This document shows, piece after piece, positions 56,777 through 58,817 of a stretch of 64,000 nt of DNA (its first letter is position 1; each line of letters begins with the position of its first letter). The DNA comes from Fibrobacter sp. UWT2 (GTDB taxonomy: Bacteria > Fibrobacterota > Fibrobacteria > Fibrobacterales > Fibrobacteraceae). The position numbers and the translations under genes were made by a program. The stretch covers positions 124,001 through 188,000 of the forward strand of contig NZ_FRBF01000001.1 of the NCBI RefSeq assembly GCF_900142545.1, read 5' to 3'. The notes under the pieces are model-generated. The model was not told the DNA's origin and made no database searches. It saw nothing but the letters and a program-made list of their open reading frames with translations.

Positions 56777-56845
56777 AAATGACCTGTGAATCGTCAGAAA
56801 ATTGACGGAATAAAGCTGATTTTGCTATATTTGCAGTCCACAAAT

Positions 56846-56919
56846 GCTCGAGTAGCTCAGTTGGATAGAGCAATTGCCTTCTAAGCAATGGGTCGTGGGT
56901 TCGAATCCCGCCTCGAGTA
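56846..56919 (+). tRNA. tRNA-Arg, anticodon TCT
   Basis: 74 nt. Acceptor GCTCGAG/CTCGAGT with G-U at the first pair, D arm GCTC...GAGC, anticodon arm ATTGC-CTTCTAA-GCAAT (anticodon TCT), T arm GTGGG-TTCGAAT-CCCGC, discriminator A. CCA is not encoded. The promoter TTGACG-N18-TATATT is just upstream. Confidence 0.97.
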
Positions 56920-56921
56920 TG

Positions 56922-56956
56922 AATAGCCTAGACACCTTTACGGTGTCTAGGCTATT
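56922..56956 (+). terminator. Terminator of the tRNA-Arg gene
   Basis: A perfect 15-bp stem (AATAGCCTAGACACC / GGTGTCTAGGCTATT) with loop TTTAC, followed by TATTTTTG. It starts three bases after the tRNA. Confidence 0.95.
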
Positions 56957-56974
56957 TATTTTTGTAGGAGGGAG

Positions 56975-57077
56975 CGAACCCGAAGGGTTCGACCTCTGCG
57001 TAAGGCGAACGCAGCGACCGAGCTTGCTCGGGCATTGCTGAGCCGTAGCAGAGGCTACAAAGCACGTAGTGCTTTGT
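56975..57077. repeat. Multi-hairpin intergenic element
   Basis: Nested perfect stems: CGAACCC/GGGTTCG (56975-56991), CCTCTGC/GCAGAGG (56993-56999 with 57048-57054) enclosing CCGAGC/GCTCGG (57018-57031), and ACAAAGCAC/GTGCTTTGT (57057-57077). There is no ORF. It could be a mobile palindromic repeat or a structured RNA. Confidence 0.6.
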
Positions 57078-57118
57078 GAGTCCCGCCGTTAAGAATCAAA
57101 AAAATCATACACAAAAAA

Positions 57119-57143
57119 ACGTCCGGTTCAAAGAACCGGGCGT
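57119..57143 (-). terminator. Terminator of groES-groEL
   Basis: On the minus strand ACGCCCGGTTC pairs with GAACCGGACGT and is followed by TTTTTTT. Confidence 0.85.
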
Positions 57144-57170
57144 CCATAAGGAGTAGAATCTAGGGGCCGA

Positions 57171-58817
<1,647 letters not shown>

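Follow-up and report, generated by a model that had tools for sequence, protein, structure and literature searches.

Hairpin-based dispersed repeats that lie downstream of genes include the REP/BIME-RAYT systems and the miniature elements derived from IS200/IS605, and MITEs are bounded by terminal inverted repeats and duplicate their target over a length set by their transposase. In PMC10969869, ERIC, Correia, RUP, BOX and other MITEs are presented as short mobile repeats devoid of a transposase gene, and the Rickettsia palindromic elements (RPEs) as sequences of about 150 bp that encode a conserved peptide and are found, for nearly half of them, within ORFs (PMC10969869). Besides, hairpin stems are reported to be both made and repaired by template switching (PMC8794818).

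The locus considered here belongs to Fibrobacter sp. UWT2 and lies in a window of 64,000 nucleotides, i.e. the whole stretch of DNA that was analysed. An earlier note, made from the sequence alone, had singled out 103 bases (56975-57077) filled by four perfect stems, two of them nested, and devoid of any ORF, between the terminator of a tRNA-Arg and that of groEL. All four stems are present exactly at these positions, none of the listed ORFs of at least 60 aa covers the stretch, and its placement between both terminators is borne out. From the compactness of the stretch, either a structured RNA or a palindromic mobile repeat had been suggested. The latter alternative stands, and is favoured because empty sites at two gene ends show insertion; there is no support for a structured RNA fixed at this locus. 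The stretch is almost certainly one copy of a large dispersed repeat family, and the element is a non-autonomous palindromic repeat dispersed across the family of Fibrobacter. The open-licence PMC literature, which cannot prove absence from print, yielded no published description of such a family, and in the part of PMC2864571 considered Fibrobacter is named solely in one reference.

Table 1. Features of the tRNA-Arg(TCT) locus, in window positions
Feature	Position	Strand	Basis and remarks
tRNA-Arg(TCT)	56845-56920	+	ARAGORN, Rfam tRNA; T-arm and 3' end reappear downstream
Terminator 3' arm plus tRNA 3' end as a diverged inverted copy	56942-56981	+	73% complementary over 40 nt to 56897-56936
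Outermost closing stem, 5' strand GGAGGGAG	56967-56974	+	Pairs with tail 57078-57087; 146-nt fold
Stem 1, CGAACCC-GAA-GGGTTCG	56975-56991	+	Turn between inverted and direct tRNA T-arm copies GGGTTCGA
Outer arm X, CCTCTGC	56993-56999	+	Fold; pairing copy-specific across the element family
Conserved core AAGGCGAAC...GCTGAGCCGTA	57002-57047	+	GGC/GCC short stem, tandem G-A step, R-Y pair, inner hairpin
Inner hairpin CCGAGC-TT-GCTCGG, nested within X/X'	57018-57031	+	Perfect stem
Outer arm X', GCAGAGG, complement of X	57048-57054	+	Fold; copy-specific pairing across the element family
3' hairpin ACAAAGCAC-GTA-GTGCTTTGT, C-GNA-G loop	57057-57077	+	Fold, loop survey
Tail GAGTCCCGCC	57078-57087	+	Resembles tRNA 3' part GAATCCCGCC (56903-56912), direct repeat

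Anatomy, folding and distribution of the repeat family

With a size of roughly 90-130 bp, the element is composed of an arm X, a 47-nt core, an arm X' and a short hairpin often closed by a GNA loop, to which a repeat of the host target is added in some copies. The window copy is slightly longer than the 103 bases originally delineated, GGAGGGAG and GAGTCCCGCC closing an outermost stem around them. Folded as RNA, 56975-57077 reaches -52.0 kcal/mol vs. -33.4 (sd 3.3) for dinucleotide shuffles (z -5.57), the opposite strand gives a z of -6.54, and 0/200 shuffles are as stable on either strand. Folded as DNA, 56966-57088 yields z values of -5.4 and -4.8 and a copy at the leuS end (L086) a z of -2.5, i.e. 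a mixed outcome for the DNA folding of single copies. Regarding the 3' hairpin, a perfect stem of at least 5 bp is present in 69 of the 84 distinct 3' sides, with a C-GNA-G closure in 38 of these 69 vs. 9 of the 1518 hairpins of the control (4983 windows, same loci); this ratio is a rough one, subfamily members being non-independent and some of the 69 hairpins being neighbours of the element, but the difference is still large. DNA mini-hairpins with a GNA loop are described as extraordinarily stable (PMC4686876).

In the direct vicinity of the window copy, the order 3' of the terminator is an inverted tRNA 3' end, a GAA turn, a direct T-arm copy (GGGTTCGA, a direct repeat of 56897-56904), the element and finally GAGTCCCGCC. 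The same order is encountered in the own genome behind tRNA-Pro(CGG) (L072), where the final part is a 15-nt repeat of the tRNA 3' end; another tRNA-associated copy lies behind tRNA-Arg(CCG) (L051), and T-loop junctions occur at tRNA-Arg(TCT), tRNA-Arg(CCG) and tRNA-Pro(CGG). The score of the inverted copy is reached by 8/500 two-base-block shuffles for the window, 0/500 for L014 and 3/500 for tRNA-Pro; in L051, it is reached by 187/500 shuffles and is not significant. Over 36 loci, 24 tRNA-Arg neighbourhoods exhibit 45 downstream tails of the TCCCGCC type, 26 of which have their next three bases equal to those of their own tRNA, vs. 9.1 (maximum 17) in shuffles. The tail of the window is among those that do not continue like their own tRNA, the match ending with CCCGCC and the following GTTA differing from the TCGA of the window tRNA.

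A BLAST of the own genome gave just one full copy along with six chance-level stretches, and a covariance model was therefore needed. DNA searches of 111 genomes of the family retrieved the tRNA-Arg neighbourhoods of relatives as well as other sites matching the middle of the element only, and the core common to side-by-side copies reads AAGGCGARYGCAGCGACC-hairpin-GGGCATTGCYGAGCC. In an alignment of 23 copies, the inner helix is 97.5% paired with two-sided changes in 8/14 pairs, one inner-helix pair being G-C in 12 copies and A-U in 11, and the outer helix is 68% paired. The covariance model R1, built on the core alone (22 copies, 14 pairs, 47 nt), has a single match in the window (57002-57048, 76.4 bits) and finds 14 copies at E <= 4.3e-4 in the own genome, a fifteenth match (E 4) being noise. 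Copies elsewhere, for which the earlier note had proposed a genome search, are thus present in the own genome, and they occur throughout the genus, each of the 80 genomes searched having from 5 to at least 76 matches; these counts are lower bounds, scoring having been limited to 77 candidates in any genome. At the family level, R1 matches 91/110 genomes from 6/11 genera, with 0/12 genomes in genus g4; phylum-wide, 89/167 genomes match at E <= 1e-6, every one of them in the Fibrobacter family, on the understanding that many of the searched genomes are incomplete drafts and that the R1 E-values are rough, per the tool's own statement.

The compensatory changes that the earlier note had looked to are abundant in the core pairs. 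In a collection of 88 copies, 75 of them distinct, standard pairs make up 97.4% of the pair cells and two-sided changes affect 12 of the 14 core pairs, amounting to 203 cells vs. 57 in shuffles and at most 26 with partners slid, in an alignment fitted to structure, which favours pairing statistics. A variant core in which the first stem is reversed, AAGCCGAG...CGAGGC replacing AAGGCGAG...CGAGCC, recurs in five loci (L070, L151, L165, L183 and L222) and is itself a compensatory change. At curated scores, Rfam recognised tRNA only in the window and 20 further loci, and a permissive Rfam search of 56930-57180 left chance-level matches alone on the element; plasmid and phage collections contained no match to the element, and viral contigs no match to a degenerate core pattern.

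Insertion sites and copy-specific arms

At a gene end encoding YGKD-stop, a copy stands right behind the stop codon in 5 of the 30 loci listed (L151, L152, L165, L166 and L175), L151 being the copy of the own genome, and a different insert is present in L176. GACTA flanks the element on both sides in 4 of these 5 filled loci, the left side of the own copy reading GATTA. Beyond the element, L165 joins the sequence that also lies downstream in the empty L167 and L179, and the other filled loci differ there. The leuS 3' end is occupied in L211 and unoccupied in L214 (own genome) and L217, which continue in the same way; L222 bears a variant copy, and L219, L232 and L240 are read as decayed remnants of the element. 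At an EELI-stop gene end, L181 is filled and L182 empty, and at other loci several elements follow one another with copies of the gene end between them.

Besides gene ends, copies reside within CRISPR repeats of genome G019 (L039 at 1041, 5581, 5690, 9332 and 9514; L040 at 1494-1540), where the sequence reads GTCTTA, the element and then ATCCACTG..., some of them in the first repeat of an array; no clear target duplication is apparent in the CRISPR case. Further copies occur in AT-rich arrays. Clear in-frame copies inside genes amount to 2 of the 51 matches examined, namely in a PriA-like ORF (L044), where the element provides residues 178-193 and separates the 3' DNA-binding domain from the helicase domain, and in an IleRS-like C-terminal domain (DUF5915; L099), where it provides residues 57-73. 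Another copy, lying inside a 404-aa ORF with a weak BatD match (L082), is a doubtful case. Two candidates for in-frame insertion were rejected, i.e. a thrS-like one (L092), in which the element shifts the frame, and a leuS-like one (L064), in which the leuS match begins after the element, at residue 91. Of note, the own genome has two leuS-like 3' ends, at C8:116492 and C8:128453; for the leuS-like copy at C8 128 kb (L064:1286-2785), the match starts after the element at model position 426 of 843, the first half of leuS being absent from that frame, and this copy is truncated. When mechanical ORFs of 120 aa or more are considered in the nearly finished genome G063, 12 of the 58 cores fall inside one and 11 of the 58 lie at most 40 nt from the stop codon of one.

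Some further arrangements were observed. In L089, L095 (1501), L097 (93), L110 (159) and L114 (201), a sequence resembling the 16S rRNA 5' start is preceded at a short distance by a copy with TTAATC/GATTAA arms; the motif AATGAAGAGTTTGATCCTGGCTCAG, which we take to mark the start of the 16S rRNA, is visible in L089 and L095, and L097, L110 and L114 show just the first part of it. Such a copy may have a role in the rRNA leader. In genome G063, a subfamily (e.g. C2:714875, C2:749016 and C1:235498) appears to sit inside a palindrome-like CCTGA...GAAG ... ATCCAG..., and repeats may thus be nested in one another. Likewise, a partial core match overlaps the surroundings of an opposite-strand core match in L041:1482-1567 and L046:1484-1569, which suggests that one element was inserted into another.

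The outer arms are copy-specific, the two arms of a copy matching each other. At the two gene ends where empty sites show insertion, the 5' arm (AAGACTA, AGTAA) corresponds to the coding sequence of the host together with its stop codon, and its complement is found as the 3' arm within the element. From 93 extracted copies, 91 of which have full flanks, 29 representatives were retained after removal of look-alikes; at least 6 consecutive Watson-Crick pairs between own arms are formed in 20 of these 29 representatives vs. 2.1% of partner shuffles, and a direct repeat of at least 6 bases is found in 12 of the 29 vs. 17% in shuffles. A second set, comprising 58 of the 60 matches in genome G063 (L095 being shared with the first 93 copies), replicates the arm pairing with at least 6 pairs in 8/19 representatives vs. 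0.9% in shuffles, the mean being 5.05 vs. 3.43 shuffled and the best of 2000 shuffles 4.06. In one set of orthologous copies, the match is retained with changes on both sides, L183 having TTGATATAA with CAATATCT and L197 TTAATATAA with CAATATTT. In an eight-copy subfamily of genome G063, the inner 79 nt are identical to the reference in 6 copies and one base off in the 2 others, and the arms enclosing the core and the 3' hairpin vary pairwise (AGAGCT/AGCTCT, AGAACT/AGTTCT, AGTGCT/AGCACT), with one wobble or mismatch in C2:244999 and C1:1213236. In several expanded subfamilies, arms are carried along with the element, namely CAAATG (L049, L112, L125, L127 and L136) and CAACTC (genome G063), and arms are therefore not rewritten at every move. 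As for the target repeats, their length varies, with 5 bp in L165, 12 in L116, 16 in L137 (read from the flanks) and 32 in L051.

Possible modes of spread

The reading tentatively preferred here is that of a palindromic mobile repeat, itself non-autonomous, the arms of which would originate from copying by fold-back or template switch. The element would be copied as single-stranded DNA in the course of replication or repair, its core and mini-hairpins would fold and its 3' end would snap back, after which the polymerase would copy the neighbouring host strand and thereby write X' as the complement of X. Such snap-back copying would also duplicate a stretch of the target of variable length, and the same zig-zag copying would account for the 3' ends of tRNA-Arg and tRNA-Pro being repeated behind these genes, first inverted and then direct. 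A spread as folded single-stranded DNA, with an arm copied from the target, is proposed because of the inverted and direct flank copies, the GNA turns, the paired changes in the arms and the variable target repeats. Behind a terminator, the element gives the impression of being selfish and close to neutral, and a host function need not be invoked. Counting against arm copying, searches for Y1_Tnp and RVT_1 identified no responsible enzyme, fewer than 5 arm pairs are formed in 8 of the 19 representatives of genome G063, and the longest arm pairing is just 3 or 4 in L053, L092, L096, L100 and L123. The arms carried along in some subfamilies, the L116 case with its fit to target choice by pairing, the wobble or mismatch in two sets of enclosing arms, the CRISPR case without clear target duplication, the direct repeats confined to 12 of the 29 representatives, the window tail that departs from its tRNA and the non-significant inverted copy in L051 weigh against it too.

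A bolder version, which we hold to be rather doubtful, is that of a bacterial mobile element free of any dedicated enzyme, whose folding core would parasitise replication or repair by fold-back template switching. In such a case, X' would be the complement of the host target at founding, the outer stem would record the landing site, and tandem arrays as well as inverted and direct tRNA 3' ends would be produced.

A miniature element of the classical type, mobilised in trans by a transposase (be it a Y1 HUH enzyme of the IS200/IS605 or RAYT type or another one) and having the outer arms as its ends, is rather unlikely. Hairpins at both ends, a non-coding sequence, many copies per genome, expanded subfamilies carrying their arms along and the insertion shown at empty sites would all fit. 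However, the end sequences are inconstant and the target repeats range from 5 to 32 bp; Y1_Tnp, the transposase family searched, is found in just 27/80 genomes of the genus and is absent from the own genome and from the two genomes with the largest numbers of matches (G084 and G086), a past enzyme being possible.

Selection for the fold of a functional structured RNA, such as a 3'-UTR or a tRNA-downstream RNA, appears improbable. The strong covariation of the core with its tandem G-A step, the copies lying directly behind stop codons in genome G063 and the occurrence of the element in several genera are what such an RNA could leave. Against it stand the spread in matches per genome, the copies inside CRISPR repeats or in frame in the PriA-like and IleRS-like ORFs, and the empty sites together with presumed decayed remnants.

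It is improbable that X' acts as a guide, the target being chosen by pairing with X' and the X/X' match following from this choice. In agreement with such a choice, L116 has the X' of L124 and a similar, non-identical target with one mismatch, and enclosing arms differ between otherwise nearly identical copies. The source of new guides would nevertheless be left unexplained, X and X' co-change after insertion in one ortholog example (L183 vs. L197), and the carried-arm copies L125, L127 and L136 are read as lying in targets unlike X. A SINE-like retroelement, in which an RNA is copied by a reverse transcriptase with variable target duplications as a result, would suit the varying length of the target repeats and the RNA-like core but is most improbable, RVT_1 being present in 31/111 genomes of the family, the own genome not being one of them, and in 5/12 genomes of g4, where the element was not found; neither the distribution of Y1 transposase nor that of reverse transcriptase tracks the element. 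Lastly, a fixed riboregulator of tRNA or groEL was rejected, the same core being found at many unrelated sites, and the view that a tyrosine recombinase had left att sites arrayed at the tRNA 3' end was no longer kept as the main reading, since non-tRNA copies share the same anatomy and the tRNA end is also inverted.

Should the arms indeed be copied from the target, the family would amount to a natural experiment in template switching, repeated independently many times across related genomes, and the perfect covariation of its stems would reflect a copying mechanism rather than an RNA function. Covariation driven by copying would in turn bear on the way functional RNAs are called from covariation. 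Fibrobacter genomics also gains a family of repeats that can be masked and that can serve to trace recent changes in the genome.

Comparison with known systems

Like tRNA-targeted integrative elements, the copies next to tRNA genes come with tRNA 3' ends as direct repeats behind the tRNA; unlike them, the tRNA 3' end is also inverted here, no ORF of at least 60 aa covers the copy in the window and the core occurs at many non-tRNA sites. With ERIC, Correia, RUP, BOX and other MITEs, the element shares being a short mobile repeat without transposase gene. The constant terminal inverted repeats of MITEs were not found, the outer arms being copy-specific (as judged on the arms of the element alone), nor was a fixed-length target duplication, 5, 12, 16 and 32 bp being duplicated at different sites. 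Hairpin-based and dispersed downstream of genes like REP/BIME-RAYT and the IS200/IS605 derivatives, the element differs from them in that the Y1 transposase was not found in 53/80 genomes here and that the target repeats are variable.

Template-switch (quasipalindrome) mutation resembles what is seen here in its reverse-complement copies of neighbouring sequence and in stems that can be kept paired (PMC8794818). It is a mutation process and not a mobile element; in the present case, a conserved core would spread in conjunction with it.

The RPEs, as depicted in PMC10969869, are alike in being short, palindromic, transposase-less and present in many copies, and they include insertions in frame within genes (PMC10969869). 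The feature of a short palindromic dispersed repeat is found again here; the differences are that the lineage is another one and that clear in-frame cases are limited to the two matches given above, RPEs being compared by description alone. The element is not filed as an RPE because of this rarity of clear in-frame insertion and of a comparison made by description. To our knowledge, arms matching the host have not been described for RPEs. By analogy, the element would work like other palindromic interspersed repeats, first and foremost the RPEs.
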